Made by a program: the position numbers and the translations under genes. The notes under the pieces are model-generated. The model had not been told where the DNA came from and made no database searches. It saw only the letters and a program-made list of their open reading frames with translations. From Micromonospora parathelypteridis (GTDB lineage: Bacteria; Actinomycetota; Actinomycetes; Mycobacteriales; Micromonosporaceae), in assembly GCF_014201145.1 (NCBI RefSeq), contig NZ_JACHDP010000001.1, positions 6,014,001-6,078,000 of the forward strand: DNA of 64,000 nucleotides, read 5' to 3'. Of the stretch, positions 1 through 17,301 are shown piece by piece; positions within the stretch are counted from its first letter, which is position 1, and each line of letters opens with the position of its first letter.

Positions 1-419
1 ACGACCGAGGCCGCGGCCCGATCGAGCGTGTCGCCGGCCACGGTGCGGCTGGTGACCTCGGCCAGCATCTCCATGCACTGTTCGCCGGCACCGCCGTGCA
101 CGTCGCCCAGGAGGTTCACCCCGGTGGCGACGGCGTTGTTGAGCCCGACGCCGCAGGTGGCGGCAATGCGGGCCACCGCGATCGACGGAGCGTGCGGGCC
201 GTGATCCACGCCGGACACCATCGCGGCCTCGAGCAGCCGCTCCTGGGCGGGTGTCGGAGGGTGCCCCCGGAGCAGCAACCAGATCGTCCCGACAAAGCTC
301 GTGTGCCCGATGAGGTCCTGCACCGGTCGACCACGCAGTTCGATCACATCAGGTTCGATGCGGGACACCGCGGTGGACCACCAGTCCGACACGTCCCGCA
401 CGGTTGGTCCGTCACTCAC
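1..419 (-). CDS. Citryl-CoA lyase / citrate synthase-family protein, 5' part
   Basis: The gene starts with GTG at 417-419 and runs off the left edge, so only about 139 N-terminal residues are visible. The translation contains HTSFVGTIWLLLRG and DVHGGAGEQCMEML, which resemble the citrate-synthase superfamily branch annotated as citryl-CoA lyase: an N-terminal 'ELRG.P..DLIG' segment and a glycine-rich HGGAGE segment. Known family members cleave citryl-CoA or related 3-hydroxyacyl-CoA esters in a retro-Claisen or aldol direction, or condense acetyl-CoA with an oxo acid. The GTG overlaps the TGA of the upstream CoA-transferase (shared GTGA at 416-419), so the two are translationally coupled. A CoA-transferase feeding a CoA-ester lyase is a sensible pair, but the substrate cannot be read from the fragment. 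The N-terminal family resemblance is clear; the active-site half lies outside the window. Confidence 0.72.
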   Translation of the reverse strand, partial: MSDGPTVRDVSDWWSTAVSRIEPDVIELRGRPVQDLIGHTSFVGTIWLLLRGHPPTPAQERLLEAAMVSGVDHGPHAPSIAVARIAATCGVGLNNAVATGVNLLGDVHGGAGEQCMEMLAEVTSRTVAGDTLDRAAASV

Positions 420-2613: not shown

Positions 2614-4101
2614 ATGCTCGACAAGCCCATCCGTACGCCATCGATCGAGGTCGTCGAGGTCGGATGCCTCATCGCTGGCGAGTGGGTCACGACGGGACCG
2701 CGACTCGAACGCGTCGGACCCTGGGTGCGGCAGAGCGTCAGCGCCGCCCGGCAGGCGGACGAGGACGACGTCACCGCCGCACTCGAATACGCACGCCGTG
2801 GCGCGAAAACGACCGCCCGCCTCTCGCCAGCGGCACGAGCCGCAGTGCTGGAGCGCGCCACCGCTGCCGCGACCGAACAGCGGGACCGCCTGGCGCGGCT
2901 ACTGGCGCTGGAACTCGGCAAGCCGGTCAAGGACGGTCTGGGCGAGATCGATCGGGTCGCGGACACGTTCGCCGTCGCCGCAGCCGAGGCCAGGCGTATC
3001 GGGGGAGAGGTCCTGCCGGTCGCCGGCTGGGCCCGGGGTGTGGGGACGACCGCCTTCACACACCGTGCGCCGGTCGGCGTGGCTCTGGCGATCACGCCAT
3101 TCAACGCGCCGGCCAACCTGCTGGCGCACAAGCTCGCGGCAGCGTTCGCGGCGGGAAACACGACGATCGTCAAGCCGCCGCCGCAGGCGCCGGCGGTGTC
3201 CGCGGCGATCGTCGCGCTCCTGCTCGACTCTGGAATGCCCCCGGAGGCCGTTCAGGTGCTCAACGGTGAGGGCCGGCTCGGGGCTGCTCTGTGTGGGGCC
3301 CCGGACGTCGGCGTCGTCAGCTTCACCGGCAGCGTCGCCACCGGTGCGGCGGTCGCCCGTGCGGCCGGCGCCAAACGGCTCGTCATGGAACTCGGGGGCA
3401 ACGCCGCCACGATCGTGTGTGAGGACGCGGACGTCGGGGCAGCCGCCCGGATCTGCGCCGCCACCGGATACAGCAACTCGGGACAGAGTTGCATCTCGGT
3501 TCAGCGGATCTACGTCCACCGTGGGCGCTACGACGAGTTCCTGGCCGCCTTCACCGGCGAGGTGGAGAAGTTGTCGGTCGGCGATCCGCTCGACCCGACC
3601 ACCGACGTCGGGTCGATGGTCGACGACGACGCGGCCGAACGCGTGGTCGCCTGGGCCGCCGAGGCGGAGGCCGCAGGTGCGACCGTCACGACCGGCGGCC
3701 GCCGGGACGGCGCCACCGTCGTGCCGACCGTAGTGGCTTCGCCTCCCGTCGACGCACGGTTGATCCGCGACGAGGTGTTCGGCGCGGTGGTCAGCGTGTT
3801 GCCCTACGACAACTTCGACGATGTGGTCGCCGCCTGCAACGACAGCCGTTACGGACTGCAGGCAGGGCTTTTCACCAATGACGTCCGGCGGATCGTGAGA
3901 GCGTGGCGCGAGCTTGAGGTCGGTGGCCTCGTCGTCAACGGCTCATCCAACTTCCGACTCGACCACGTCCCGTTCGGCGGGGTCAAAGACTCCGGGTTCG
4001 GGCGCGAATCACCGCGCTGGATGATCGACGACTACACGGTTGTGAAGACGTTGCTGCTGCGTGGCATGTCCCTGTTCGGCGATCAGGAAGGCACGCGATG
4101 A
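2614..4101 (+). CDS. NAD(P)-dependent aldehyde dehydrogenase
   Basis: A 495-residue protein of the ALDH superfamily. Visible motifs are ITPFNAP (cofactor channel Asn), SFTGSVATG (nucleotide loop), MELGG with the general base E259, and NSGQSCIS with catalytic C293. The C-terminal PFGGVKDSGFGRE is typical of lactaldehyde/succinate-semialdehyde-type members. The frame is open further upstream, but ATG at 2614 has GGGAG just before it and family homology begins about 20 residues later. Its stop overlaps the start of the TPP enzyme (ATGA at 4098-4101). The likely role is oxidation of an aldehyde, either from the neighbouring TPP-dependent decarboxylation/lyase or from retro-aldol cleavage of a CoA ester; the substrate is unproven. 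Confidence 0.92.
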   Translation: MLDKPIRTPSIEVVEVGCLIAGEWVTTGPRLERVGPWVRQSVSAARQADEDDVTAALEYARRGAKTTARLSPAARAAVLERATAAATEQRDRLARLLALELGKPVKDGLGEIDRVADTFAVAAAEARRIGGEVLPVAGWARGVGTTAFTHRAPVGVALAITPFNAPANLLAHKLAAAFAAGNTTIVKPPPQAPAVSAAIVALLLDSGMPPEAVQVLNGEGRLGAALCGAPDVGVVSFTGSVATGAAVARAAGAKRLVMELGGNAATIVCEDADVGAAARICAATGYSNSGQSCISVQRIYVHRGRYDEFLAAFTGEVEKLSVGDPLDPTTDVGSMVDDDAAERVVAWAAEAEAAGATVTTGGRRDGATVVPTVVASPPVDARLIRDEVFGAVVSVLPYDNFDDVVAACNDSRYGLQAGLFTNDVRRIVRAWRELEVGGLVVNGSSNFRLDHVPFGGVKDSGFGRESPRWMIDDYTVVKTLLLRGMSLFGDQEGTR

Positions 4102-5873
4102 CTCTCGACCAACTTGTGGACACCGCCGCGCACCGGGACACGGTCCCCGCGGCGGAGGCCATGGTGGCCCAGCTCGAGTCGTACGGGGTGGAGTACGTCT
4201 TCGGCACCTGTGGACACACCAACATCGCACTACTCGATGCCATTGGGCGCAGCAGCATCCGGTTCATCATCGCCCGTCACGAACAGACGGCCGCGCATGC
4301 GGCCGACGGCTACGCCCGCGCCACCGGCAAACCCGGCGTCCTGCTGCTGCACGTCGGCCCCGGCATGACGAACGCGGTCACCGGCGTGCTCACCGCCGCG
4401 ATGGACTCGGTGCCGCTGGTGGCGATCGCCGGCGACATCCCGTCCTACTACTACGGCCGGCATCCGCACCAGGAGATCAACCTCCATGCTGACGCCGACC
4501 AGGCGGCGATCTACCGTCCCTTCGTCAAGCGGGCGTGGCAGGTGCACCGAGCGGGTGACCTGGCGCGGTTCACCCAGCGCGCCTTCTCGACCGCGACCAC
4601 CGGGCGTCCGGGCGCAGTGCTGCTCAGCGTGCCGATGGACCACTTCTCGCGTCCGGTCCCGCGGGAGACCGCGGACGGGTTCCCGCTTGTGACACCGGAG
4701 CGGCCGGGCCTGCAGGCTGCCGTCGCTGGACGGATTGCCGACCTGCTCGTGGCCGCCGAGAGGCCGCTGGTCTACCTGGGCGGCGGCCTGCGGCGCGGAC
4801 CAGGACTCGACGCCCTGCGCTCGCTGATCGAGCACCTCGACATCCCCGTCGCACATTCGCTCATGGCCAAGGGGACCCTGCCCGACAGCCATCCGCTCCT
4901 GCTCGGGATGCCAGGCTTCTGGGGCCTTGAGGTGACCAACCGGCACACCCGTGAGGCTGACGTCGTCCTGGCGCTGGCCACCCGGTTCGCCGAGACCGAC
5001 ACCAGCTCCTGGGACCCCCGCTACACCTGGCAGTTTCCGCCCGGGCACCTGATCCAGATCGACATCGACCCGGCGGAGATCGGCCGCAACTTCCCGGTCG
5101 CGGTGGGCGCCGTCGCCGACGTCTCGGACGCCGTGCGCGCCATCGACACCGCTGTCCGTGAACGACAGCCCACGCCGCGCCAGCGGCCCGAGCTGCGCGA
5201 GACCATCACCGCGACCCGTCGTGCGCTCTTCAGCGAGAGCCGGGAACGCGGCACCAGCGCCCAGTTCCCGCTGCGACCCGAGCGGATCCTGGCCGACCTG
5301 CGGGCGATTCTCCCGCCGGATTCCATCCTCGTCACCGATGTGGGATGGAACAAGAACGGCGTCGCCCAGTGCTACGAGCTGCCCGACGAGGGGCGGTTCA
5401 TCACACCCGGTGGCGCTTCGACGATGGGCTTCGGCCCAGCGGCAGCGGTCGGTGTCCAGATCGCTCAGCCCGACCGGACCGTCGTCGCCCTGATTGGCGA
5501 CGGCGGCATGGGCGCGCAACTGCCCGCGGTGCCCATGGCGGTCGAACAGGGCGCCCCGGTCATCTTCGTCGTGATGAACAACCGGTCCCACGGCACGATA
5601 TCCGACCTGCAGTCGGCGAACTTCGGGCGCAGTTACGGCTGCGACTTCGTCGGACCCGACGGCTTGCCGTACAGCCCGGACTTCGCCGCCTATGGCCGGG
5701 CGTGCGGCGCCGACGGCTACAGCATCGCCACGGCCGAGGAACTGGGCTCCGCCCTGCGCAGCGCCGTCGAGGCACGCCGCCCGGCGGTGCTGGACGTGCC
5801 CATGATCAACGAGCCGGTCCCGACACCGGGGCACTGGAACATCAAGGACATCTACCGGGGGGTCTTCGACTGA
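4098..5873 (+). CDS. Thiamine-diphosphate-dependent enzyme (acetolactate synthase/decarboxylase family)
   Basis: A 591-residue protein with the three-domain layout of this family. The N-terminal Pyr domain carries the cofactor-activating glutamate E62 in IARHEQTAAHAADGYAR, followed by a central domain. The C-terminal PP domain has the Mg/ThDP motif from G467-D468-G469 (GDGGMGAQLPA) to N494-N495. It resembles acetolactate synthase large subunits and related 2-oxo-acid decarboxylases or carboligases. No regulatory small subunit is adjacent and the setting is catabolic, so branched-chain biosynthesis is unlikely. It overlaps the aldehyde dehydrogenase by 4 bp, which suggests decarboxylation to an aldehyde that the dehydrogenase oxidises. 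Substrate unknown. Confidence 0.88.
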   Translation: MTLDQLVDTAAHRDTVPAAEAMVAQLESYGVEYVFGTCGHTNIALLDAIGRSSIRFIIARHEQTAAHAADGYARATGKPGVLLLHVGPGMTNAVTGVLTAAMDSVPLVAIAGDIPSYYYGRHPHQEINLHADADQAAIYRPFVKRAWQVHRAGDLARFTQRAFSTATTGRPGAVLLSVPMDHFSRPVPRETADGFPLVTPERPGLQAAVAGRIADLLVAAERPLVYLGGGLRRGPGLDALRSLIEHLDIPVAHSLMAKGTLPDSHPLLLGMPGFWGLEVTNRHTREADVVLALATRFAETDTSSWDPRYTWQFPPGHLIQIDIDPAEIGRNFPVAVGAVADVSDAVRAIDTAVRERQPTPRQRPELRETITATRRALFSESRERGTSAQFPLRPERILADLRAILPPDSILVTDVGWNKNGVAQCYELPDEGRFITPGGASTMGFGPAAAVGVQIAQPDRTVVALIGDGGMGAQLPAVPMAVEQGAPVIFVVMNNRSHGTISDLQSANFGRSYGCDFVGPDGLPYSPDFAAYGRACGADGYSIATAEELGSALRSAVEARRPAVLDVPMINEPVPTPGHWNIKDIYRGVFD

Positions 5874-5948
5874 GCGGCGAGCGCCCTGCCGTCGTCCGCG
5901 CACACCCCACAAACACCCACCACCCCACCACGACTCGAGGTGACCCTC

Positions 5949-7103
5949 ATGACTCGACGCTATCGGCGTACGTTCGCCGCCTCGCTCCTCGCCATCGGAG
6001 TGGTCTTCGCTGGCGCCTGCTCCGCCCCTGGGGAGGAGTCCGCCGGTGAGGACGGGAAAACCGGCCCCATCAAGATCGCCATCGCCAACGCGCAGAGCGG
6101 CCAGCTGAGCTCGCTCGGCGCCTGGGAACTCAAGGGCGCCAAACTCGCCATCGACGAGTGGAACAAGAAGGGCGGCATCGACGGCCGTCAGATCGAGACC
6201 GGCGTCTTCGACAGCCAGGGCGATCCGACGGTCGGCACCAACGTCGCACGCAAGATCGCCAGCGAGGGCTACATCGCGATGCTCGGCACCGCCGAGAGCG
6301 CGGTGACGATCGCCATGGCGCCGATTCTCCGGCAGGAGGAGATTCCCAACATCACCTCCGGCCAGTCGCCGGGCCTGATCGCCGTCAAGAGCCCCTTCCT
6401 GTTCCTCAATGGCCCGACCAGCCTGACCTACGACGAGACGCTGGCCGAGCACGTCGTCGACAAGCGCGGGATCAAGAGCATCGCTCTCATCACCAACAAC
6501 GGCTCCTACGGCAAGGGCGAACACGACGCCTTCACCAAGGCGCTCGCCGCCCGCGGTGTGACGCCGGTGGCCGACCAGGTCGTCACCACCGACCAGAAGG
6601 ACTTCAGCGCGGCCTTGACGAACATCCGTCAGCGTAAGCCGCAGCTGATCTTCGTCGGTGCGGAGGAAGTGCAGTCCGGTCTGATCGTCAAGCAGGCGCG
6701 CGACCTCGGTATCACCGCTCCCTTCGCCGGTGCCGCGCCGCAGGGCACGCCCGTGTTCATCGACACCGCCGGGGCGAGCAACACCGAGGGGACGATCGTG
6801 AGCACGCCCTACCTCAGCAACGAGGTGAGCGATGCGTCGCGCACATTCGCCGCCGCCTACCTGGCAGCGTTCGGCGAACCCGCCGAGATGCACGGCGCAA
6901 AGGCCTATGACGGCGCGCAGATCCTGCTGACCGCCCTCAAGAACACCAACGTGGCCTCGGGCAAGGAACTCGCCGACGCGATCCGTGCGGTCAAGCACCA
7001 GGGCCTGCTGGGCAGCTTCGCGTACGACGAGACGGGCGTCGGGATCTTTGCGACCTCGATCGGCACGATCACCGCAGGCAAGTTGGTCCCGACCCAAGGC
7101 TGA
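5949..7103 (+). CDS. Liv-type ABC transporter substrate-binding lipoprotein
   Basis: A 384-residue periplasmic-binding-protein-type I receptor with a lipoprotein signal peptide (basic MTRRYRR, hydrophobic core, lipobox ending at C24 in FAGAC). The mature part begins IKIAIANAQSGQLSSLG and continues LAIDEWNKKGGIDG, typical of branched-chain amino acid/carboxylate receptors. An in-frame GTG at 5940 is also open, but GAGGTGA at 5936-5942 sits six bases before ATG 5949 and fixes the start. The protein would be lipid-anchored on the outer face of the membrane and deliver ligand to the permeases that follow. Many actinobacterial members bind aromatic or alicyclic acids rather than amino acids, which fits the surrounding catabolic genes. 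Confidence 0.92.
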   Translation: MTRRYRRTFAASLLAIGVVFAGACSAPGEESAGEDGKTGPIKIAIANAQSGQLSSLGAWELKGAKLAIDEWNKKGGIDGRQIETGVFDSQGDPTVGTNVARKIASEGYIAMLGTAESAVTIAMAPILRQEEIPNITSGQSPGLIAVKSPFLFLNGPTSLTYDETLAEHVVDKRGIKSIALITNNGSYGKGEHDAFTKALAARGVTPVADQVVTTDQKDFSAALTNIRQRKPQLIFVGAEEVQSGLIVKQARDLGITAPFAGAAPQGTPVFIDTAGASNTEGTIVSTPYLSNEVSDASRTFAAAYLAAFGEPAEMHGAKAYDGAQILLTALKNTNVASGKELADAIRAVKHQGLLGSFAYDETGVGIFATSIGTITAGKLVPTQG

Positions 7104-7111
7104 TCTTGGAG

Positions 7112-7136
7112 GGGGCGGCTCCCGTGGGGCCGCCCC
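7112..7136 (+). terminator. Intra-operon hairpin after the binding-protein gene
   Basis: GGGGCGGC (7112-7119) and GCCGCCCC (7129-7136) form an 8-bp all-GC stem in the 63-bp gap between the binding protein and LivH. There is no T-tract. Such hairpins often stabilise or partially terminate the message so that the receptor is made in excess of the permeases. Confidence 0.6.
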
Positions 7137-7166
7137 GGATCGTCGGAAGAGGGTCAGGGGAGAAGC

Positions 7167-8036
7167 ATGCAAGTCTTTCTGCAGACGTTCATCGGCGGGA
7201 TGAGCCTCGGCGCGATCTACGCTCTTGTCGCGTTGGGCTTCTCGCTCGTCTACCGCACCATGGGCCTCGTCAACTTCGCGCACGGCAGTGTCGTGATGAT
7301 TGGCGCCTACCTTGCGTCGACGTTCTACCTCACGGTGAGACTCCCCTTCGCTCTGGCCATGGTGGTGGCGATCGGGGTCACCGGGCTGATCGGCATCATC
7401 ATCGAGCGGGTGCTGCGGCCGCTGGAGAACAAGGACTTCGACCTCATGCTGATCGGCACGATCGGCTTCGGAATCGTGCTGGAGGCGCTCGCGATCGTCA
7501 TCTGGGGTGCGACCGGACGTGCGGTGCCGTCGCCCGTACCGGCAGCACCCCTGGACGTCCTCGGCATCCGCATCCGGACGTACGACCTTGTCGTGCTCGC
7601 CATCGCGGCCGTCGCGACGGTCCTGCTGGTCCTCTTCCTTCAGCGGACGAAGCGTGGCATCGCGATGCAGGCGGTGGCCATGGACCACCAGGCCGCAACC
7701 GCCGTCGGCATCCATGTCGGGCGGAGCAACTCGATGGCGTTCATGATCGGGGCAGGCCTCGCCACGTTGGCCGGCGGCCTCGTCGGCCCGCTGTTGTATG
7801 TGAGCCCCGCGATGGGCGGAGCGCTCGGCATCAAGGGCTTCGCCGGGGCGATCCTCGGCGGCTTCGGCAGCATCCCGGGCGCGATTCTCGGTGGGATCAG
7901 CATCGGGGTGATCGACTCGTTCGCGGCTGGGCACTTCCAGGGCTACTCCGAGCTTGTCACATTCCTGATCTTCACCATGATCATCATGATTCGCCCGACC
8001 GGCATCTTCGGCGAGAGGACGGTGAACCGGGCATGA
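7167..8036 (+). CDS. livH: Branched-chain-type ABC permease LivH
   Basis: A 289-residue integral membrane protein with eight or so hydrophobic segments and the family signatures GMSLGAIYALVALGFSLVYR at the N-terminus and GFAGAILGGFGSIPGAILGG in the LivH/LivM loop that contacts the ATPases. ATG at 7167 follows GGGGAGAAGC. It ends in a 4-bp ATGA overlap with the next gene. Together with LivM it forms the membrane channel of the importer. Confidence 0.92.
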   Translation: MQVFLQTFIGGMSLGAIYALVALGFSLVYRTMGLVNFAHGSVVMIGAYLASTFYLTVRLPFALAMVVAIGVTGLIGIIIERVLRPLENKDFDLMLIGTIGFGIVLEALAIVIWGATGRAVPSPVPAAPLDVLGIRIRTYDLVVLAIAAVATVLLVLFLQRTKRGIAMQAVAMDHQAATAVGIHVGRSNSMAFMIGAGLATLAGGLVGPLLYVSPAMGGALGIKGFAGAILGGFGSIPGAILGGISIGVIDSFAAGHFQGYSELVTFLIFTMIIMIRPTGIFGERTVNRA

Positions 8037-9847
8037 GGTACCGGCTCGGCGGTCTGGCGGCGCTGGCGGTCGTCGCCTGGATGCTCCCGTACCAGCTCAA
8101 CTCGTACACCATGCACGTCGTCAACGTCATGTTGCTGTACGCGATCCTCGCGGTCGGTCTCGGCCTGGCCATGGGCATCGCCGGGCAGATCAACCTGGCT
8201 CAGGTCGCGTTTTTCGGCGTGGGGGCCTATGCCACGGCTGTCCTCACCGTCAAGGCGGGCCTGGGTTTCTGGATGGCTGCCCTGCTCGCCATCCTCGCCA
8301 CGGCGGCGGTCGGCCTGGTCGTGGGTACCCCCGCGCTACGCGTGCAGTCCCATTACCTGGGCATCGTGACACTCGGGCTCGCACTGGCCTTCACCAACTG
8401 GGTGACCAACTCCGAGGTCGCTGGCGGCGCGGAGGGCATCTCGGGCATCCCGCGGCCGGAACTGCCCGGCATCGACCTGTCCAACGCGTATCTCTACTAC
8501 TACGTCGAGCTCGCGCTGTTCGCGCTGACCCTGGGTTTCGGCCTCTTCGTCGTGCACACCTCGCTGGGCCGGCGGATGCGCGCGATGCGCGACGACTCCC
8601 TCGCCGCCGGCGCGGTCGGCGTCGAGGTGCCCGCGCTGCGGATGACCGCCTTCCTGCTCGCGAGCGTCTACGGCGGCGTCGCGGGCGTGCTCTACTCCGG
8701 GCTGATCGGGTACGTGGCACCGGAGACGTTCAGCATCGCCAACATGTTCCTGCTCCTCGCCATGGTGATCATCGGAGGGCGGCAGAGCCTGGTGGGTTGC
8801 GTGGTCGGCGCGATCGCACTCGCACTCGTCCGCGAGGTGCTGATCGACTATCCGACCTACGCGCAGGTGGCGTACGGCACGGTCGTGGTCCTCACCGTCG
8901 TGTTCGCACCGACCGGGTTGGCCGGCCTTCCCCGCCGTCTGAACTCCGTGGCGCGGCGGCTGGGCTGGCGTCGTCGGCCGGAGCAGCAGGCAGCCTCCCT
9001 GAGCCCGTTTCGGCCGTACGAGCCCGGGCCGGCGCCGGTCGACGACGCTGCGCCCATCCTGGAGGTCCGCAACCTCAGCATGCATTTCAAGGGCGTCAAG
9101 GCCGTCGCCGACGTCTCCATCCTCGTGCCGGCCCGGCAGATCAGGGGCATCGTCGGCCCGAACGGTTCGGGCAAGACCACGCTCTTCAACGTGATCAGTG
9201 GGCTCTACCGGCCGACCGCGGGACGCGTGCTCCTCGACGGTCGCGATGTCACCGCGGCAAGGCCACATGCCCTGGCACACGCCGGCATCGCGCGGACGTT
9301 CCAGAACCTGCGGCTCTTTCCGGCGCTGACCGTGCGGGACAACGTTCTGGTTGCCCTCGACCCGAGCCGGGTCCGCGGTACCTGGCGCTACCTCCTGCTC
9401 CCGCTCGGCGTATGGCGGCGCGACCGTGCCCTGCGTCGGGAGGCCGACGACCTGCTCGACCGGTTCGGTCTGCGAGCCTTCGCCGACAGCCAGCCAACAG
9501 CGCTGCCGTACGGCACCCAACGCCGGGTCGAGATCGCCCGCGCGATGGCCGCCCGACCGCGACTCCTGTTGCTCGACGAGCCAGCGGCAGGCCTCAACGG
9601 CGATGAGGTCCGGCAGTTGTGCGACATCATCCGCTCGATTCGCGACGCCGGCGTCAACGTCGTCGTCATCGAACACAACATGGGGATGGTCATGTCCCTG
9701 TGTGACCACGTCACCGTCCTCGCCCACGGCGCGATCATCGCCGACGGGCCGCCGGACGAGGTTGCGGTCTCACCCGAGGTGATCGAGGCCTACCTCGGCG
9801 AGACGATGGCCATGCCAGCACCGGCCGTGTCGGAGGCCCAGCGATGA
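8033..9847 (+). CDS. LivM-LivG fusion: ABC permease fused to ATPase
   Basis: A 604-residue fusion. Residues about 1-300 are a LivM permease (YAILAVGLGLAMGIAGQINL, then the IIGGRQSLVG loop). Residues about 340-590 are a LivG ATPase with Walker A GPNGSGKT (375-382), signature-like YGTQRRVEIARAM, Walker B LLLLDEPAAGLN and the switch region VVIEHNMGMVM. LivM and LivG are usually separate genes, although fusions are known in actinobacteria and proteobacteria. ATG at 8033 overlaps the LivH stop; although the frame is open upstream, hydrophobic LivM sequence starts immediately. The stop overlaps LivF. The linker (about residues 300-338) is rich in Arg, Gln, Pro and Ala. Confidence 0.92.
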   Translation: MRYRLGGLAALAVVAWMLPYQLNSYTMHVVNVMLLYAILAVGLGLAMGIAGQINLAQVAFFGVGAYATAVLTVKAGLGFWMAALLAILATAAVGLVVGTPALRVQSHYLGIVTLGLALAFTNWVTNSEVAGGAEGISGIPRPELPGIDLSNAYLYYYVELALFALTLGFGLFVVHTSLGRRMRAMRDDSLAAGAVGVEVPALRMTAFLLASVYGGVAGVLYSGLIGYVAPETFSIANMFLLLAMVIIGGRQSLVGCVVGAIALALVREVLIDYPTYAQVAYGTVVVLTVVFAPTGLAGLPRRLNSVARRLGWRRRPEQQAASLSPFRPYEPGPAPVDDAAPILEVRNLSMHFKGVKAVADVSILVPARQIRGIVGPNGSGKTTLFNVISGLYRPTAGRVLLDGRDVTAARPHALAHAGIARTFQNLRLFPALTVRDNVLVALDPSRVRGTWRYLLLPLGVWRRDRALRREADDLLDRFGLRAFADSQPTALPYGTQRRVEIARAMAARPRLLLLDEPAAGLNGDEVRQLCDIIRSIRDAGVNVVVIEHNMGMVMSLCDHVTVLAHGAIIADGPPDEVAVSPEVIEAYLGETMAMPAPAVSEAQR

Positions 9848-10599
9848 CAGTCACCCGTGGCACGTCCGACGGCACCAACGTCAGCACCGAGCGCCAGCTC
9901 GTCGTCGACGGCCTCTCCGTCCGCTACGGCGGGGTGACGGCTGCCCACGACGTGTCGTTCACCGTGCAGGCGGGACAGTCGGTCGGCATCATCGGCGCGA
10001 ATGGCGCTGGCAAGACCTCGACGCTCAAGGCGCTGATGGGCCTGGTCCCGCGCACCGTGCGGTCGATTCGATACGGTGACGTGGACCTCACGCGTGTGCC
10101 GGGCCGCAACATGGTCCGCCACGGGATTGGCTACGTGCCGGAAGGTCGGCATGTCTTCCCCGGCCTTCCGGTGGAGAGGAACCTTCTCCTCGGCGCCTAC
10201 ACCCGCCGGTGGAAGGGCGCGACGCTGGACACGCTCGACGAGGTCTACGAGCTGTTTCCGGTCCTGCGCGAGATGCGCGGTCGGCTCGCCGGTGCGCTGT
10301 CCGGCGGGCAGCAGCAGATGCTCGCGATCGGGCGCGCACTGATGTCGGCACCGCAGCTGATGCTCCTTGACGAGCCGTCGATGGGCCTCTCGCCGAAGCT
10401 GGTCAGCGAGATTGTCGCCGTACTCAAGAAGCTCAACGAACGCGGTCTCAGCATCCTGCTCGTCGAGCAGAACGCACAGTTGACATTCGAAGTGACCACG
10501 GAGTGTCTCGTCATGGAGAACGGCGTCGTCGCCATGACCGACTCCTCCGAGGCACTCCGTCAGAACCCCCAGGTACGCAAGATCTATCTCGGCCTCTGA
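9844..10599 (+). CDS. livF: Branched-chain-type ABC ATPase LivF
   Basis: A 251-residue ABC ATPase with Walker A GANGAGKT (51-58), the family motif GIGYVPEGRHVFPGL, signature LSGGQQQMLAIGRAL and Walker B LMLLDEPSMGLSP. It pairs with the LivG half of the preceding fusion to energise import. Its start overlaps the fusion gene's stop by 4 bp. It is the last gene of a unit that probably begins at the aldehyde dehydrogenase: catabolic enzymes and importer share orientation with gaps of at most about 75 bp. Confidence 0.93.
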   Translation: MTVTRGTSDGTNVSTERQLVVDGLSVRYGGVTAAHDVSFTVQAGQSVGIIGANGAGKTSTLKALMGLVPRTVRSIRYGDVDLTRVPGRNMVRHGIGYVPEGRHVFPGLPVERNLLLGAYTRRWKGATLDTLDEVYELFPVLREMRGRLAGALSGGQQQMLAIGRALMSAPQLMLLDEPSMGLSPKLVSEIVAVLKKLNERGLSILLVEQNAQLTFEVTTECLVMENGVVAMTDSSEALRQNPQVRKIYLGL

Positions 10600-10646: not shown

Positions 10647-12788
10647 ATGACGAACATCGATCGAAGGAATGTACTGAAGGGCGTGGCCGCGACAGCCGTG
10701 GCTGCCGCGGTCGCGCCCGCCGCCTCAGCCGCTCCGGCACAAGCCGGTGGACGGCACGGTGGTGGTCACCAACGACCATCGGCCGCCGACCTCGCCCGAT
10801 TCGATACGCCCGGCGACCGGGACTTCCCGAAGGTCGGCGGCAACCTGGGCAACCAGAACTACACCGCACTGCGCGGCATCGACCGGGGGAACATTCGCCG
10901 TCTGCGCGGGGCCTGGGTCAACCGGATCGAGGGCGGTCTCGCCTCGGGCAGCAGCCAGAGCACGGCTGTCGCCGTCGGCGGAGTGCTCTACATCGAGTCC
11001 GCGCTCGGCAATGTCGTCGCCGTCGACGGTGCCACCGGGCAGACCAGATGGCGGTACGACCAGACTCGCGGCACCCTGACCCGACGCGGCGTGGCAGTCG
11101 GTGGCGGCTACGTCTTCACCAAGTCGAACGAGAACTACGTCATCGCGCTCGACCAGGAGACCGGCCAGGTCGCCTGGGAGCACCAGGTCAACGGCTTCGG
11201 CAACATCGAGAAGGTCGCCGTCGTCTACCACGACGGTCTGCTGTTCTGTGGCACCAACGACGGTCCCCGTGGCGCCGCCCTCGCCCTCGACGCCCAGAAC
11301 GGCGAGGTGCTGTGGCATTTCTGGGGCACTCCGGGCCCCGGCGAGTTGGGCAACGACACCTGGGAGGGCGACTCCTGGATGGATGGCGGCGCCACACCGT
11401 GGATCCACCCGGCCGTCGACCCCGAGCTCGGCCTGACCTACTGGACGTTCGGCAACGCCCGTGGCAACAACTCGTCGCAGGACGGGTCAGCGCGGGGCGG
11501 GCAGAACCTGTTCGCCAACTCGCTCGTCGCGCTGGATCTGCGGACCGGCGCCTACCGCTGGCACTTCCAGTCGATCCACCACGACATCTGGGACATGGAC
11601 AACGTGATGTCGCCGGTCCTCGCCGACGTCAGCATTCGGGGACGCACCCGCAAGGTGGTCATCTACGGCAGCAAGTCCGGCATGTTCTTCATCCTCGATC
11701 GCCTCAGCGGCACGGCGCCGTTGGGCGTCGTCGAGCGGCCGGTGCCGCAGGAGCCACGCCAGAAGACGTGGCCGACCCAGCCGTTTCCCGCGCAGGGTGG
11801 GTGGACCGAGCAGCGGATCGTCGACCAGCCCCTGGGCACCGCCGTCCCCGGCGACCCCAACCGCGCGGTGCCCAACTACGTGCAGGGCGCCCTCTACGAC
11901 CCGCACTGGGAGACGCCCATCCTCTCCATCCCGGGCCATGGCGGCGGCGGAGACTGGTCGCACCTGTCGTTCAGTCACCGCACCGGCCTGGTCTACAACG
12001 GCTTCGGGTACGTCGCGGCCGCGCACTCACTGACCGAGAGCAGCAACGGGCTTCGCCCGCCCGGCGAGTACCAGACCGGGGGAATCGTCGCCGTCGACGT
12101 TCGGACCAACCTGGTGAAGTGGAAGCGGCGGATGCCGTACTCGCTGGCACACGGCAACGGCATTCTCACCACCGCCAGCGACCTGATGTTCATCGGCCAG
12201 CCCGACGGCAACCTGCTGGCGATGGACGCGCGCAACGGTCGCGAGCTGTGGCGGTTCCAGACGGGCGCGGCGATCAGCTCCAGCCCGATCATGTACCGCG
12301 TCGGCAACAAGGAATATCTCGCGGTGTACGCCGGCGGAACCAGCATCCCGTACGGGAACTCGGCGCCACGCGGTGACTTCCTCTGGGCCTTCGAGATCGG
12401 CGGAGACCTCGGTCCGGCCCCGACGCCGCCACCCCCGGTGATCCGTCGGCCGGTCTCCGGCGGGCCGGTCGAGGGCACTGCGGTGGCGAACACGGTCGTC
12501 ATCGGGCGCACGTACAACGCCTCCACGGGCGAGATCGGCGCCACGGAGTCGTTCGCGGTCGCCGGTATGGCGCCCACGCACCTGCGGATCCCGGTCGGCA
12601 CGGCCGTGACGTTCACCAATCACTCCGGCAACGCCGGCGTGCGAGGGGCGACGCAGTTCTTCGAAGGGCTCTTCAACGTACGGCTCGCGCCCGGTGAGTC
12701 GTTCCAGTACACGTTCACCAAGGTGGGCGAGTACTTCTACAACGACCCGGGAAGCCCTCGCTCCACCGGGAAGATCGAGGTCTACTAG
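10647..12788 (+). CDS. Tat-exported PQQ-type dehydrogenase with C-terminal cupredoxin-like domain
   Basis: A 713-residue secreted protein. The N-terminus has a Tat signal (RRNVLKG, then an Ala-rich core to about residue 35). Residues about 60-600 form the PQQ eight-bladed propeller. The segment H311-H312-D313-I-W315-D316-M-D318 matches the HHDLWDMD block of membrane glucose/quinate dehydrogenases and carries the catalytic-site Asp, so the enzyme is closer to that class than to methanol dehydrogenases. It lacks the membrane anchor domain of GCD/QuiA and the Cys-Cys ring of alcohol dehydrogenases. Residues about 610-713 have a cupredoxin fold pattern (PVGTAVTFTN ... KVGEYFY) but no cysteine, so a type-1 copper site is unlikely. 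It lies 47 bp after LivF. Oxidation of quinate or shikimate outside the cell would suit the next genes; PQQ supply is not encoded here. Confidence 0.82.
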   Translation: MTNIDRRNVLKGVAATAVAAAVAPAASAAPAQAGGRHGGGHQRPSAADLARFDTPGDRDFPKVGGNLGNQNYTALRGIDRGNIRRLRGAWVNRIEGGLASGSSQSTAVAVGGVLYIESALGNVVAVDGATGQTRWRYDQTRGTLTRRGVAVGGGYVFTKSNENYVIALDQETGQVAWEHQVNGFGNIEKVAVVYHDGLLFCGTNDGPRGAALALDAQNGEVLWHFWGTPGPGELGNDTWEGDSWMDGGATPWIHPAVDPELGLTYWTFGNARGNNSSQDGSARGGQNLFANSLVALDLRTGAYRWHFQSIHHDIWDMDNVMSPVLADVSIRGRTRKVVIYGSKSGMFFILDRLSGTAPLGVVERPVPQEPRQKTWPTQPFPAQGGWTEQRIVDQPLGTAVPGDPNRAVPNYVQGALYDPHWETPILSIPGHGGGGDWSHLSFSHRTGLVYNGFGYVAAAHSLTESSNGLRPPGEYQTGGIVAVDVRTNLVKWKRRMPYSLAHGNGILTTASDLMFIGQPDGNLLAMDARNGRELWRFQTGAAISSSPIMYRVGNKEYLAVYAGGTSIPYGNSAPRGDFLWAFEIGGDLGPAPTPPPPVIRRPVSGGPVEGTAVANTVVIGRTYNASTGEIGATESFAVAGMAPTHLRIPVGTAVTFTNHSGNAGVRGATQFFEGLFNVRLAPGESFQYTFTKVGEYFYNDPGSPRSTGKIEVY

Positions 12789-12834: not shown

Positions 12835-15633
12835 TCAGTGGCCGGCGCTCGGTGACACGGCCGATGGTCGCCGAACCGGCGTCGCACCGGAGCGGTCGAG
12901 ATGGTCGCGGGCGGCCGTGATCGCCAGGCGGGCATGTTCCCTGGCGCCCACCTGAGCGACCAGGGTCGCGCGCGGGATCTCCAGGGCGTAAGGCAGCCCG
13001 GGCGGCAGGGCGTCGAGAATGCCGTGGACGTCGATGCCACCCTCGCCCGGAAAGAGACGCTCGAACCGAGCGGTGTGAATGAGGCCCTCGTTGGTCGTGG
13101 GCACCCCGGGCGGCGCGTCGCAGACATGGACGAAGTGGAACCAGTCGACGGGGAGCTGACGGAGGTCATCCACGCTCGATCCGGAGCGTGCGAAGTGCAA
13201 CAGGTCGATCAGCATGCCGACGTTGGGCTGGTCGGCTCCCCGTAGGACGCGCACCGCCTCGCGGAGGTCGGGTGTTTCCGTCCACGACGGGAATTCCAGG
13301 TCCACGGTGAGGCCGAGCGGTCGGGCCAGCTCACACAGCTGGGCGTACCGGTCGATCTTCCGGGCCCGGTCCGGGTCCGGCAGTTGCGCTATGACGTGCC
13401 GGGCCCCGAGTTCCGCGCCGGCCTCCAGAAATCGCAGGAACGCCCGCGGGTCGTCGTCCGGACTGATCCGGGCCAGTTCGATGTCGAGCACCTCGATCCC
13501 GGTGGCGGCAAGGCGGACCTTGGTGGTCCGCATGAGGGCCGGATCGGTGGCGAGCGGGTAGTGCGGTTCCTGTGGGGTGACACGGGTCAGGCGCAGGCCC
13601 ACGTATCGGTATCCGGCGTCCGCCGCGGCGTCCACCAGGTCCGGTGGGGAGAGGCTCAGGGCCGTGAGATGGGCCAGCGAGTAGTCGTGGCGCTCGTCGT
13701 TGCGGGCTGCGGGTACGTCCCGCAGCGTCATCAGGCGACGTTCCCGATGGGCGGCCATCCGCACCGGGACGCTTGAGGCCGCACCGCAACCGAGGTAGCC
13801 CTCGATGCGCTGGACGACCTCGAAGAAGATACGCGAGCCGAGTATCTCGGTGTAGAAGTGCAGATACTCCCCACGCTCGTCGCGGTCGTAGAGGATCGAG
13901 AGGTCCCGCATCGCGGAGAGGAGTTCCGGCGGCGGGTCGAGTCGAGCGTCCAGGTCGACGTAGTAGTTGTCGGGGATCCGCAATATCGGAGCGCCCAGCG
14001 CGCGCATCGCCCTGGCGCTGGCGACCACATTGTCGGAGCCGAACGCGATGTGTTGGGGGCTCGGGACGGCGGGCGACCAGTCACCGCGGCGCAGGGGCGC
14101 TGTGTTGAGGGTGATCCGGACCCGTTGGCGCAGGTCGCTGGCGGTCCGGGTCCGGATAAGCCCGAACGGTGCGGCGATCTCGGTGGCCTCGCCAGCGTGC
14201 AGACCGAGCACCGTTCGGTAGAAGATCGCGGCCTCGTCGAAGTCGTCGACGGACTCGGTGAGCGAGACGTGATCGATGCCGGTCAAAAGGCCGTCGCTGC
14301 GCGGCGCCGCGCCGGTGGGGGAGAAGTCTTCGAGCCAGCTGCCCCGGTCCGCGCTCTGGACGAGGAAGACGGCCGTGCCGTCGGGTGCCGCCACGGAGGT
14401 GAGGTCCGCTTCCTCCGGACGGCGCAGGCGCGGTAGCACCGGGGCGAGCAGCCGTTCCGCCCGTTGGGCCGACCCGGCCGGATCCGCACTCTCCAGGCCG
14501 AGGGCGCAGACCGCCGCCGTCACTGGCGGGACTGCCCTGTGCGCCGCGAAGTTCAACAGGATCCGCGCCCTGCCCTGTTCCCACAGCTGCACCGGCTTGG
14601 AGCGGTGTTGCCCGGTGTGTGCGAAGCCGAGAGCGGTCAGCGTGCGCGCCACGACCGGACCCGAGCGATCGTCGACGGCAAGCTCGGTGAACACGTGCCC
14701 CCCGAGCTGGGGGGCCGGCGGTAGACCGGTCATGCGAAGGCGTTCACGAGCGGCTGGTGGGCCGGAGATGCTGACCGCCTCCCGCAGGGCGACCAGCGCA
14801 CGCATGCCGTCGATGGCCGCGTGTCGGGGGTCGGCCTGGCGGTAGACGTCGTTGAACACCTCGAGCGACAGGGGGCCGTCGTAGCCGGTGGTCAGGACGT
14901 GGCCGAGGAATCCGGGCAGGTCGAACGAGCCAAGCCCGGGGAACAGCCGATGATGCCGGGACCACTCGACCACGTCCATGGTCAGCCGTGGCGCATCCGC
15001 CAGCTGCACGTGGAACACCTTCGCGCCGGGTATGACCCTGATCCCGGCGGGGTCGTCGCCGCGGGAGAGGACGTGGAAGCTGTCGAGGCACAGGCCGAGC
15101 GCGGGATGCCCGGCGCGTCGGACGATTCGCCAGCTGTGCGCGTAGGTGTTGACGAACCGACCCCACGCCAGAGCCTCGTACGCGATGCGCAGGCCGCGTT
15201 GCTCGGCCCGGCCGGCCAGGAGGTTGAGTTGCTCGGCGGCGAGGTCGTCGTCGTCGACGGCGTCCGTCGACGTCGACGAGGCGACCAGCATCGTCTTGGC
15301 GCCGAGTTGTTCGACCACGTCGAACGTCCGCTCGGCGCGCCGCAGGTTGGCCCTGAACACCTCCGGCGGGACGGCCTCGAAGTCACGGAACGGCTGGTAG
15401 ACGTCAATTGACAGGCCTCGGCGGGCGCATTCCTGCCGCACCCGGTGGGGTGACCAGGGCGATGCGATGAGATCGCTCTCGAAGATCTCGACTCCCTGGA
15501 AACGAGCCGCGGCGGCGGCCGCCAGCTTGTCCTCCAACGTCCCGGAGAGGCAGCCCGTCGCGATGACTGCACCTGGACGCGCGGGCGTCTCCTCGACCTG
15601 ATCGTGCGGACTGTCACGGTGCGCGGTGCGCAT
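12835..15633 (-). CDS. 3-dehydroshikimate dehydratase / VOC domain / second sugar-isomerase-like TIM barrel fusion
   Basis: A 932-residue, three-part protein. Residues 22-290 are a TIM barrel of the QsuB/QuiC 3-dehydroshikimate dehydratase type (SGTLEDKL, GVEIFESDL). Metal ligands fit E153, D184, Q210 and E258, with the 31/26/48 spacing of QsuB as I recall it. Residues about 310-620 are a hydroxyphenylpyruvate-dioxygenase-like VOC module with a plausible H455/H528/E605 triad. Known QsuB/QuiC1 proteins end about here. An extra 298 residues from M635 form a second xylose-isomerase-like barrel with candidate site residues E780, D810, H836 and E885. The first reaction gives protocatechuate from 3-dehydroshikimate; the function of the third domain is unknown. 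The start at 15633 overlaps the dehydrogenase gene by 20 bp. An internal translation start at M635 (13731) or loss of a stop between two former genes are alternatives. Confidence 0.85.
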   Translation of the reverse strand: MRTAHRDSPHDQVEETPARPGAVIATGCLSGTLEDKLAAAAAARFQGVEIFESDLIASPWSPHRVRQECARRGLSIDVYQPFRDFEAVPPEVFRANLRRAERTFDVVEQLGAKTMLVASSTSTDAVDDDDLAAEQLNLLAGRAEQRGLRIAYEALAWGRFVNTYAHSWRIVRRAGHPALGLCLDSFHVLSRGDDPAGIRVIPGAKVFHVQLADAPRLTMDVVEWSRHHRLFPGLGSFDLPGFLGHVLTTGYDGPLSLEVFNDVYRQADPRHAAIDGMRALVALREAVSISGPPAARERLRMTGLPPAPQLGGHVFTELAVDDRSGPVVARTLTALGFAHTGQHRSKPVQLWEQGRARILLNFAAHRAVPPVTAAVCALGLESADPAGSAQRAERLLAPVLPRLRRPEEADLTSVAAPDGTAVFLVQSADRGSWLEDFSPTGAAPRSDGLLTGIDHVSLTESVDDFDEAAIFYRTVLGLHAGEATEIAAPFGLIRTRTASDLRQRVRITLNTAPLRRGDWSPAVPSPQHIAFGSDNVVASARAMRALGAPILRIPDNYYVDLDARLDPPPELLSAMRDLSILYDRDERGEYLHFYTEILGSRIFFEVVQRIEGYLGCGAASSVPVRMAAHRERRLMTLRDVPAARNDERHDYSLAHLTALSLSPPDLVDAAADAGYRYVGLRLTRVTPQEPHYPLATDPALMRTTKVRLAATGIEVLDIELARISPDDDPRAFLRFLEAGAELGARHVIAQLPDPDRARKIDRYAQLCELARPLGLTVDLEFPSWTETPDLREAVRVLRGADQPNVGMLIDLLHFARSGSSVDDLRQLPVDWFHFVHVCDAPPGVPTTNEGLIHTARFERLFPGEGGIDVHGILDALPPGLPYALEIPRATLVAQVGAREHARLAITAARDHLDRSGATPVRRPSAVSPSAGH

Positions 15634-16522
15634 GGGAATTCCGCCTCCCCTGTTGGTGAACGAGGACGTCGAAGTGACGCAGCATCCGCCCCACGTCCGG
15701 CTCTACTCCGGTGAAAAGCTGGAACGCGTACGCGGCCTGGAAGACCACCATTCGTCCGCCGTCGAGCACCCGGCACCCCCGCGCCCGTGCCGCGGTCATC
15801 AGCTCCGTCTCCAGTGGTCGGTAAACGACCTCGGCCACCCACAGCTCGGGGCGCAGTAGCGCCGGGGCGACGGGCAGCCCAGGATGGCCCTCCATGCCGG
15901 TTGGGGTGGCGTGGACGAGCCCGTCGGCCGCGCCCAGCTCGTCCGCCACGGCGGTGAGGGGCGCGGCGACCGCTCTCCCGGCGCCGAACCGGTCGGCCAC
16001 GGACCGAGCCAGCGCGGTGCTGCGCCCGACGTCGGTGTCGAGGATGTGCACCGAACCCGCGCCCAGGGCAAGCAGTGCGTGCGCGACGGCGGCGCCGGCG
16101 CCGCCGGCACCGAGTAACACCACACGCTCCAGGGCCGCGTCCGGGAGGCCACTGCTGAAACCGCGGGCGAAGCCGGGCATGTCGGTGTTGTGCCCTACCG
16201 CTTTTCCGCCGGTGAACACGACCGTGTTGACCGCGCCAACCGCGGCGGCGTCGGGCGACACCGCGTCGAGGTGTGTGAGCACCAGCTGTTTGACGGGGTG
16301 CGTGATGTTGACACCGTCGAACCCGGCCATCCGGACCGCGGTGAGGACCTCGTCGACGGCGCTGGGAGGCACCCCACGTTCGGCGAGGTCGAGCAGGCGA
16401 TACAGGCACCGAAGCCCGAGCTCGTCGGCCTCCCGCTCATGCAGGGCTGGGCTCAGCGATGATCGGATCCCCGAACCGATCAGGCCTACGAGGAAGCGGT
16501 GGTCGTCGTCCTCCGGGGTCAT
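15614..16522 (-). CDS. Quinate/shikimate dehydrogenase (AroE/QsuD family)
   Basis: A 302-residue protein with the shikimate-binding SSLSPALHE (S22, S24), catalytic K78 in NITHPVKQ, VGAVNT, N112-T113-D114 and a nucleotide-binding GAGGAGAAVA. The strand after the glycine loop ends HILDTD; an acidic residue there favours NAD over NADP, as in catabolic QsuD rather than biosynthetic AroE. NITHP with His is also typical of the QsuD branch. The gene is upstream of and overlaps the dehydratase fusion, so quinate or shikimate would be oxidised and then dehydrated to protocatechuate. The 3-dehydroquinate dehydratase needed for quinate is not in the window. ATG at 16522 is divergent to the TetR gene. 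Confidence 0.88.
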   Translation of the reverse strand: MTPEDDDHRFLVGLIGSGIRSSLSPALHEREADELGLRCLYRLLDLAERGVPPSAVDEVLTAVRMAGFDGVNITHPVKQLVLTHLDAVSPDAAAVGAVNTVVFTGGKAVGHNTDMPGFARGFSSGLPDAALERVVLLGAGGAGAAVAHALLALGAGSVHILDTDVGRSTALARSVADRFGAGRAVAAPLTAVADELGAADGLVHATPTGMEGHPGLPVAPALLRPELWVAEVVYRPLETELMTAARARGCRVLDGGRMVVFQAAYAFQLFTGVEPDVGRMLRHFDVLVHQQGRRNSHAHRAP

Positions 16523-16644
16523 GGACCCCTCCCGATGGTCTGGGCGAACGTACTAGATAGTTACTTATACGCCACGCCGACGCCCGTTGGGAAGGGCCGG
16601 ATCAGCGCCCTCGCTACAGTGGCTCTCGATGGGAAGGAGTGGCC
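16523..16644. promoter_or_regulatory. Divergent promoter/operator region, shikimate dehydrogenase and TetR genes
   Basis: This 122-bp divergent space contains an AT-rich patch (16551-16571, around TAGATAGTTACTTATA) that stands out in GC-rich surroundings and is the likely core promoter. AAC (16550-16552) and GTT (16561-16563) flank it as a weak inverted repeat. GGAAGGAG at 16632-16639 is the ribosome site for the TetR gene and decides its TTG start. TetR probably represses both directions from here. Confidence 0.4.
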
Positions 16645-17301
16645 TTGAACGCACAGGCCTCCGATGCGGTCGCCGATACCCCGGTGGGGCGAAACGCCGA
16701 CCGCACCAGATCTGAGATCCTCGCGGTAGCGAGCCACGAGTTCGCCGACAAGGGGTACGCGGGCGCCCGCGTGGACGAGATCGCCGCCAAGACCCGCACG
16801 ACGAAACGGATGATCTACTACTACTTCGGCGGCAAGGAACAGCTCTACATCGCGGTCCTGGAACACGCGTACACGGGCGTCCGGGCGTTGGAGCAGCAGC
16901 TTGACGTCGAGCACCTCGATCCCGCCCAAGCCATCCGGCGGCTCGCCGCGGTGACGTTCGACCACCACGAGGCGCACCCCGACTTCATCCGCCTGGTCAG
17001 CATCGAGAACATCCACCGCGCCGAGCACCTCGCCCGCTCGGAGGTCCTGGCGGGCCTGGCCAATCCCGCACTGGACGTCCTGACCCGCATCCTCGAACGC
17101 GGCCGCGCCGAGAGTCGGTTCCGCGACGACGTCGATCCCATCGACGTGCACATACTGATCAGCGGCTTCTGCGTCTTCCGCACCGCCAACCGGTACACCT
17201 TCAACGCGATTTTCAACCGGGACATGCTCGACCCGGCACGCCGCGAGCACTACCGGACGATGCTCGGTGACGTCGTCCTGGAATACCTCACCGCGCGATG
17301 A
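16645..17301 (+). CDS. TetR-family transcriptional regulator
   Basis: A 218-residue regulator. The N-terminal helix-turn-helix (ILAVASHEFADKGYAGARVD, then RTTKRMIYYYFGGKEQLY) is a textbook TetR domain; the C-terminal ligand domain is not recognisable to a subfamily. GTG at 16639 is in frame, but it coincides with the Shine-Dalgarno GGAAGGAG; TTG at 16645, five bases after that motif, is therefore preferred. The gene is divergent from the quinate/shikimate dehydrogenase-dehydratase pair and is probably its repressor, released by a pathway acid. In corynebacteria the equivalent genes are controlled by a LysR-type activator, so the regulator type differs here. Confidence 0.88.
   Translation: MNAQASDAVADTPVGRNADRTRSEILAVASHEFADKGYAGARVDEIAAKTRTTKRMIYYYFGGKEQLYIAVLEHAYTGVRALEQQLDVEHLDPAQAIRRLAAVTFDHHEAHPDFIRLVSIENIHRAEHLARSEVLAGLANPALDVLTRILERGRAESRFRDDVDPIDVHILISGFCVFRTANRYTFNAIFNRDMLDPARREHYRTMLGDVVLEYLTAR

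Follow-up and report, generated by a model that had tools for sequence, protein, structure and literature searches.

A second barrel fused to a QsuB-type dehydroshikimate dehydratase in Micromonospora parathelypteridis, and its association with a putative ring-opening and CoA gene module

In Micromonospora parathelypteridis a single reading frame joins a 3-dehydroshikimate dehydratase (DSD) of the QsuB/QuiC type to a further domain, here called D3, which raises the question of how this protein arose and which reaction the added domain serves. The frame lies in a 64,000-nucleotide stretch of contig NZ_JACHDP010000001.1 (positions 6,014,001 to 6,078,000; the window). From the sequence comparisons presented here, D3 is a member of a family as yet uncharacterised, which is linked to a putative ring-opening and coenzyme A (CoA) module. 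The frame (12835-15633, minus strand; 932 amino acids) begins with ATG and has no internal stops, and unlike the two-domain DSD it continues past its domain resembling 4-hydroxyphenylpyruvate dioxygenase (HPPD). Pfam placed AP_endonuc_2 on two stretches, the better at residues 37-280, and Glyoxalase at 453-559, with an HPPD N-terminal match at 312-423 slightly below the cut-off (24.1 against 27 bits); the NCBIfam model QuiC (NF042435) spans residues 24-632 at 578.5 bits, below its cut-off of 1200. The last 298 residues alone matched AP_endonuc_2 (PF01261) above threshold, at 61.8 bits against 31.1. The protein is thus a true three-part frame of a QsuB/QuiC-type barrel, an HPPD-like VOC domain and a second barrel, as an earlier note on this DNA had proposed. 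Its parts are as follows, with the basis of each assignment in brackets.

12835..15633, minus strand: whole fused frame, 932 amino acids (open reading frame list, database proteins)
14773..15567, minus strand: D1, QsuB/QuiC-type dehydroshikimate dehydratase barrel, residues 23-287 (Pfam, NCBIfam, active-site residues)
13738..14700, minus strand: VOC (HPPD-like) domain, residues 312-632, followed by a QsuB-type tail, PVRMAAHRERR (Pfam, NCBIfam, alignment)
12859..13689, minus strand: D3, second xylose-isomerase-like barrel, residues 649-925 (Pfam, residue alignment)

The two nearest long relatives, Micromonospora proteins of 932 and 931 amino acids, are 97% and 98% identical to the window protein over D3, which excludes a sequencing error. 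A database search for long proteins with D3 gave 375 matches, and among the best 120 of these, 115 were 850-942 amino acids long and 114 matched both D1 and D3, so the architecture is not rare; proteins of exactly this build are numerous, and none described as characterised was found in the titles and abstract starts of the literature searched. A scan of one genome per species, made with two D3 peptides and therefore biased towards conserved D3, retrieved 67 D3 loci. D1-VOC and D3 share one open frame in 59 of the 66 judged loci (L099 was unjudged, and L070 was counted as fused despite a frame break inside D1), in hosts from Micromonosporaceae, Actinophytocola, Amycolatopsis, Nonomuraea, Kribbella, Jiangella, Microbacterium, Agromyces, Leifsonia and Occultella. 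Of the other seven loci, one is cut by a contig edge (L037), one is a draft with a broken frame (L094) and five have no adjoining QsuB, namely two acidobacterial, two desulfobacterial and one betaproteobacterial (L098, frame-broken). In a D1-VOC tree built by a quick method, with L070 left out, the 59 fused proteins formed one clade (SH-aLRT 99), separate from 22 two-domain proteins.

The junction itself is consistent with this picture. Two-domain QsuB proteins end in PVRMAAHRxRR, or nearly so, at the matching position in all eight aligned, and in the fused proteins this QsuB tail is followed by a loose linker and then by HDYSLAHLTAL, the point at which free-standing D3 genes start. Because of the shared tail position and the single fused clade, the fusion looks like one old event: it is apparently old, single and widespread in actinobacteria, and D3 was apparently once a separate DSD/IolI-like barrel gene that was joined to a two-domain QsuB in the ancestor of these actinobacterial genes. 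The suggestion that D3 began as a separate gene therefore stands, since free-standing homologues exist; the accompanying one, that it was joined by a recent stop loss or indel, does not. Those free-standing D3 genes might suggest that two adjacent genes were united by faulty sequencing or assembly, or by the recent loss of a stop, but the 59 of 66 fused loci, their single clade and the near-identical relatives refute it, rule out an indel or recent stop loss at CTGATGACG and leave the idea practically inconceivable. The junction string CGCCTGATGACG, which had been taken for a relic of an overlapping stop and start, is present in the window; residue 635 is Met in only one of 60 aligned fused proteins, so the TGA/ATG string is a coincidence of this single sequence and M635 is ruled out as an ancestral start. 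A recent duplication of D1 was also rejected as the source of D3, the two being only distantly alike and the close relatives of D3 being other D3 genes.

PMC7442255 lists ten residues in the active sites of QuiC1 and QsuB; it also reports that QsuB showed no action on protocatechuate, and gives oligomerisation as the proposed role of the second domain. D1 of the window protein has all ten of the QuiC1 residues, with metal ligands E/D/Q/E, and each residue previously singled out is present (E153/D184/Q210/E258 in D1, H455/H528/E605 in VOC, E780/D810/H836/E885 in D3). Among the 60 fused proteins scored, L070 included, D1 keeps Glu134 in 58, Asp165 in 59, His168 in 58, Gln191 in 56, Arg210 in 59 and Glu239 in 57, and the position of QuiC1 Arg64 (window residue 83) is Arg in 28 and His in 21; all ten are kept in 8/8 two-domain proteins. 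The His variants belong mostly to Microbacteriaceae, Nonomuraea and Amycolatopsis, where D1 may have an altered substrate. The VOC ligands H455, H528 and E605 are kept in 57, 41 and 39 of the 60 fused proteins and in 8, 5 and 7 of the eight two-domain proteins; H528 loss is therefore not special to the fusion.

By comparison, the ten candidate site residues of D3 (R722, E780, W784, D810, H813, H836, D839, R856, R859 and E885) are identical in 60/60 fused proteins, an invariance that is partly built in because E780 and W784 sit in a retrieval peptide, and which supports the proposal that the third domain has a conserved site, a candidate for metal binding. Mean pairwise identity among fused proteins, again with L070 left out, is 0.806 for D3, 0.683 for D1 and 0.664 for VOC, and in 96.4% of 1711 pairs D3 is the least divergent of the three domains. 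Genomes of the family, which were drawn without the peptide filter, agree (in G077, 90% identity over D3 against 81% over the whole protein). D3 thus looks to be the most constrained domain, and the D1 and VOC sites appear to erode in many lines.

D3 occurs in 25 of 150 genomes of the family; in one (G018) the gene is split over two contigs, in another (G031) the frame is interrupted close to residue 123, with another copy more broken still, and in the remainder the D3-bearing frame has at least 894 residues. In tables compiled by hand from genome search listings, a thiamine diphosphate (TPP) enzyme (E <= 1e-100) was present in 24 of the 25 D3 genomes against 4 of 125 others (Fisher p 1.3e-22), and a citryl-CoA lyase (E <= 1e-40) in all 25 against 6 of 125 (p 3.8e-23), both tests being uncorrected for relatedness. 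Genomes having only two-domain QsuB carried the TPP enzyme in 2 of 23 cases, and no association of D3 with two-domain QsuB was seen (7/25 D3 genomes, 23/125 others; p 0.28).

The same partners recur across the 67 species loci, whose neighbours were tallied at identity thresholds of our own setting and many of which are truncated by contig ends. The TPP enzyme (at least 45% identity) lies within 48 loci; 15 of 17 TPP-less loci searched genome-wide (L037 and L045 were outside this search) have it elsewhere at 50% or more, which brings the count to 63 of 65 tested. A dehydrogenase of the NAD-dependent aldehyde type is found in 28 loci, 23 of them with a CoA transferase, and one of acylating type (best NCBIfam match an acylating enzyme, at 450.9 bits under a cut-off of 600) in 16, none with a CoA transferase; no locus holds both, which suggests two mutually exclusive ways to an acyl-CoA. 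Citryl-CoA lyase is present in 38 loci, including 13 of the 16 acylating ones, and is replaced in L090 and L091 by a relative of HMG-CoA lyase. AroE or dehydroquinase occurs in 31 loci and a pyrroloquinoline quinone (PQQ) enzyme in 37. D3 almost always implies this gene set, but the set does not always imply D3 and is the wider of the two. As a separate observation, a Gfo/Idh/MocA-like dehydrogenase often follows dehydroquinase (in 12/67 loci, and at L116 10525-11586) and is a candidate quinate or shikimate dehydrogenase; in most of the 12 loci the protein is 22-34% identical to the L090 gene product.

Around the fused gene of the window, the module and its neighbours are arranged as follows.

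1..419, minus strand: first part of a citryl-CoA lyase-like gene truncated by the left edge of the window; the whole gene is L104 11628 to 12419 (BLAST, PDB search)
416..1606, minus strand: CaiB-type (family III) CoA transferase
1656..2462, minus strand: IclR-family regulator
2614..4101, plus strand: NAD-type aldehyde dehydrogenase, with a start codon of our choosing (the listed open reading frame opens at 2278)
4098..5873, plus strand: TPP enzyme of the acetolactate-synthase superfamily, candidate ring-opening 1,2-dione hydrolase (NCBIfam, PDB search)
5940..10599, plus strand: branched-chain-type ABC importer of substrate-binding protein, LivH, LivM/G and LivF (all names but the first by eye)
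10647..12788, plus strand: PQQ-type dehydrogenase with a twin-arginine (TAT) signal, candidate quinate oxidase (Pfam, NCBIfam)
15614..16522, minus strand: AroE-type shikimate/quinate dehydrogenase, its end sharing 20 bases with the start of the fused gene (NCBIfam)
16639..17301, plus strand: TetR-family regulator, divergent from aroE (Pfam, NCBIfam)

The TPP enzyme scored under the cut-off of every one of the 25 NCBIfam families shown, among them acetolactate synthase TIGR00118 (369.5 bits, cut-off 538.35). The window copy of the lyase has PDB 6HXP as its best structure match and is 68% identical to the L089 homologue, which, like that of Azoarcus, exceeds the citryl-CoA lyase cut-off (NF004864; 417.9 and 460.7 bits against 261). 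Two further genes border the module. A PatB-type C-S lyase/aminotransferase at 17382-18560 (plus strand) adjoins the TetR gene and probably lies outside the module, and a secreted ThuA-domain protein of about 330 residues adjoins the module at L104 10332-11312 (minus strand) and in L110, L111, L114 and L116 (PF06283 matched the L104 and L110 copies tested; the other three were matched by eye).

Outside actinobacteria, D3 is found as a free-standing gene. In the sulfate reducer Desulfosediminicola flagellatus (L091), an HMG-CoA-lyase relative is followed in turn by dehydroquinase, D3, an acylating-type dehydrogenase and the TPP enzyme, then by a transporter, a 2-oxoacid oxidoreductase and SucCD-like genes (these last read by eye); QsuB is absent from this 20.8-kb locus, the stretch in which it was looked for. 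Among 297 genomes of its phylum D3 (E <= 1e-40) was detected only in Desulfosediminicola itself, so that the anaerobic case rests on few genomes together with protein matches; D3 proteins are also on record for Desulforhopalus, Desulfosarcina, Castellaniella and Motiliproteus. On a plasmid of Azoarcus sp. KH32C, separate genes within 20 kb encode D3 (55% identical), AroD, shikimate dehydrogenase, the TPP enzyme (51%), citryl-CoA lyase, CoA transferase, a D1-like barrel and a VOC-like protein, with RHS and IS3 genes separating D3 from the other module genes. A KstD-like FAD enzyme also adjoins D3 or its relatives in L101-L103, L089 and L095, and in Amycolatopsis such an enzyme accompanies the TPP/citryl-CoA-lyase set.

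What reaction might unite these genes can be approached from the lyase. Lyases of the citryl-CoA and HMG-CoA type require a 3-hydroxy-acyl-CoA with a tertiary alcohol, and C1 of quinate and 3-dehydroquinate is such a carboxylate-bearing tertiary alcohol flanked by two CH2 groups, as in citrate; in shikimate and dehydroshikimate it is gone. Ring opening would therefore be expected at the level of dehydroquinate, between C3 and C4, and loss of the C5 hydroxyl would turn C3-C4 into a 1,2-dione of the kind on which TPP-dependent ring-opening hydrolases act. We infer each substrate, product and the order of steps in what follows from the observed fusion, its single clade, residue conservation, co-occurrence and neighbourhood. 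The PQQ enzyme and AroE would oxidise quinate or shikimate, and dehydroquinase would bring them to 3-dehydroquinate. D3, with a Glu-Asp-His-Glu metal site, would remove C4-H and C5-OH in a DSD/IolE-type reaction to give 1-hydroxy-3,4-dioxocyclohexane-1-carboxylate, and the TPP enzyme would cleave the C3-C4 bond of this 1,2-dione, like IolD and cyclohexane-1,2-dione hydrolase. The resulting aldehyde would become homocitryl-CoA through aldehyde dehydrogenase and CoA transferase or through an acylating aldehyde dehydrogenase, and citryl-CoA lyase or the HMG-CoA-lyase relative would split it into acetyl-CoA and 2-oxoglutarate, a product that fits the 2-oxoacid oxidoreductase and SucCD-like genes at the cluster of the anaerobe. 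Our preferred reading, held tentatively, is that D3 serves an arm of quinate/shikimate catabolism different from that of D1, running through a 1,2-dione and homocitryl-CoA.

The family tests of D3 leave room for other activities. D3 exceeds no NCBIfam equivalog cut-off, its best match, QuiC (22.6-35.6 bits), and IolO (25.7-27.2 bits) both being far under, and the IolE and IolI models are not among its NCBIfam results; matches in the PDB are 1i60, 2g0w and 3dx5, the best being Lmo2234 and IolI, with AsbF weak. With residues paired by eye, D3 retains six of the ten QuiC1 site equivalents (R64, E134, D165, H168, R210 and E239), and the equivalent of Q191 is His (H836) in the fused proteins and Gln in Azoarcus D3. 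An isomerase or epimerase of the IolI or hydroxypyruvate-isomerase type, rearranging the alpha-ketol of dehydroquinate or dehydroshikimate for a subsequent split by the TPP enzyme, would agree with the best PDB matches and with a His fourth metal ligand, as in IolI and the epimerases, where D1 has Gln. The Gln of Azoarcus D3 argues the other way, as does the expectation that splitting a ketol would yield two aldehydes rather than an aldehyde and an acid, which would suit a neighbourhood with a single dehydrogenase less well; we consider this activity quite unlikely.

D3 may otherwise be a second DSD of another class, yielding protocatechuate like D1, with the module serving something else. The six retained residues, QuiC as top NCBIfam match at 35.6 bits, the weak AsbF match and the Gln ligand shared by Azoarcus D3 and QuiC1 would all be consistent with this, as would AroE or dehydroquinase in 31 of the 67 loci and PcaH in 20 of the 25 D3 genomes, most of which could because of it still use protocatechuate. 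Yet D3 tracks the TPP and citryl-CoA-lyase genes and also occurs in a sulfate reducer, and PcaH exceeds its cut-off in 23/23 two-domain-only genomes against 13/18 genomes with the fused protein and no separate two-domain QsuB (p 0.011). The complete genome of the window strain (7.01 Mb, single contig) has no PcaH match and no intradiol dioxygenase by PF00775, a profile that matched 4/14 control genomes. A second DSD therefore seems unlikely. The one class III extradiol (LigB-like) protein that the same genome encodes lies at 294 kb and scores 129.1 bits (cut-off 290). At this site (L125 9115-12262, near 292-295 kb of the genome) a second pair of CaiB and citryl-CoA-lyase-like genes is followed by LigB- and LigA-like genes, the lyase-like and LigA-like ones read by eye; the set is possibly an extradiol route that also ends in citryl-CoA-type cleavage.

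That neighbourhood bears on another possibility: with the TPP enzyme acting as a 2-oxoacid decarboxylase, the module would turn a C7 oxoacid into citrate semialdehyde and citryl-CoA, and D3 would act on a substrate along that route. Besides the CaiB and lyase-like pair beside the LigAB-like dioxygenase, an aconitase gene in genome G073, where no TPP enzyme was found, is adjoined by genes related to the CoA transferase (59%) and the citryl-CoA lyase (62%), so that citrate itself may be the substrate of the pair. The known C7 oxoacid arises by oxygenolytic ring cleavage, which is not expected in a sulfate reducer, and the row of D3, dehydrogenase and TPP gene in Desulfosediminicola weakens the proposal for this reason; we regard it as decidedly improbable. 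The G073 set (L115 4607-10164), with aconitase, citryl-CoA lyase, CoA transferase and IclR in a row beside an FAD enzyme, has the appearance of a distinct tricarboxylic-acid route.

Several observations weigh against the route through a 1,2-dione and homocitryl-CoA, in addition to the partly built-in invariance of D3 and the persistence of PcaH in most D3 genomes. Two acidobacterial metagenome-assembled genomes with D3 have no close TPP orthologue genome-wide. The TPP-dehydrogenase-CoA-lyase set also occurs in genomes G037, G049 and G098, where the 18-19 kb read contains none of D3, AroE and dehydroquinase, and where G049 and G098 have a two-domain QsuB elsewhere; D3 is absent too from G005, whose genome is 69% complete. 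In Nonomuraea gerenzanensis the set is accompanied by a two-domain QsuB and AroE, with no D3 in the stretch, and a plasmid-collection search gave no close D3 in its 11.85-Mb record; the set on a Streptomyces plasmid likewise has AroE and no D3 in the stretch read. The collection contains both records, and its best D3 match to the free-standing query, from Azoarcus, is 59.3% identical. In Azoarcus, the fourth metal ligand (H836 position) is Gln rather than His, and no aldehyde dehydrogenase is annotated in the stretch. Three alphaproteobacterial plasmid regions pair a D3 relative (43-45% identical) with a KstD-like flavoenzyme, with no TPP enzyme seen; QsuB and shikimate dehydrogenase are also encoded in two of them, dehydroquinase in the third. 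The PDB scores of the TPP enzyme favour BbmA (291 bits), for which no identification was found in the literature, and acetolactate synthase (235.7) over cyclohexanedione hydrolase (2PGN; 148.1). Finally, a class III dioxygenase pair might open protocatechuate in the genome of the window.

Set beside known systems, the fused protein builds on the two-domain DSD. QsuB of C. glutamicum and QuiC1 of P. putida (PDB 5HMQ) resemble its D1 and VOC, with the ten D1 site residues and E/D/Q/E ligands; it differs in 300 extra residues carrying a second barrel, in the altered D1 and VOC residues of many fused relatives, and in its TPP, CoA and lyase neighbours. IolI, Lmo2234 and AsbF are single xylose-isomerase-like barrels of the sequence family of D3, but the similarity is weak and no equivalog level is reached. 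The inositol pathway follows the logic proposed here, with IolE as a ketone-dehydrating barrel and IolD as the TPP enzyme opening a 1,2-dione, and cyclohexane-1,2-dione hydrolase shares the TPP ring-opening step. D3 and the TPP enzyme are not members of these families by sequence tests, however, and the proposed ring is carboxylated and its route ends in a CoA ester and a lyase. The neighbour lyase has homologues, in L089 and Azoarcus, above the cut-off of the citryl-CoA lyase family NF004864, and the substrate proposed for it here is homocitryl-CoA.

Quinate and shikimate are abundant plant acids. The known bacterial route runs through protocatechuate and needs oxygen for ring opening, and in some fermenters the breakdown of such hydroaromatics avoids aromatic intermediates, through enzymes that to our knowledge are not yet identified. 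Somewhat more tentatively than the separate arm proposed above, D3 and the TPP enzyme may catalyse the two steps that first commit quinate and shikimate to an undescribed, oxygen-independent and never-aromatic route in actinobacteria, betaproteobacteria and sulfate reducers, its entry enzyme having been welded to QsuB in actinobacteria and the QsuB sites then decaying in many lines. No such route was found in the mostly open-access literature searched by titles and abstract starts, and it would, if shown, be new as far as that search reaches. The gene set would then supply candidates for each step of non-aromatic quinate and shikimate breakdown, a question testable with two purified proteins, and the labels "3-dehydroshikimate dehydratase" and "sugar phosphate isomerase/epimerase", both of which are carried by D3 matches, may hide another activity.

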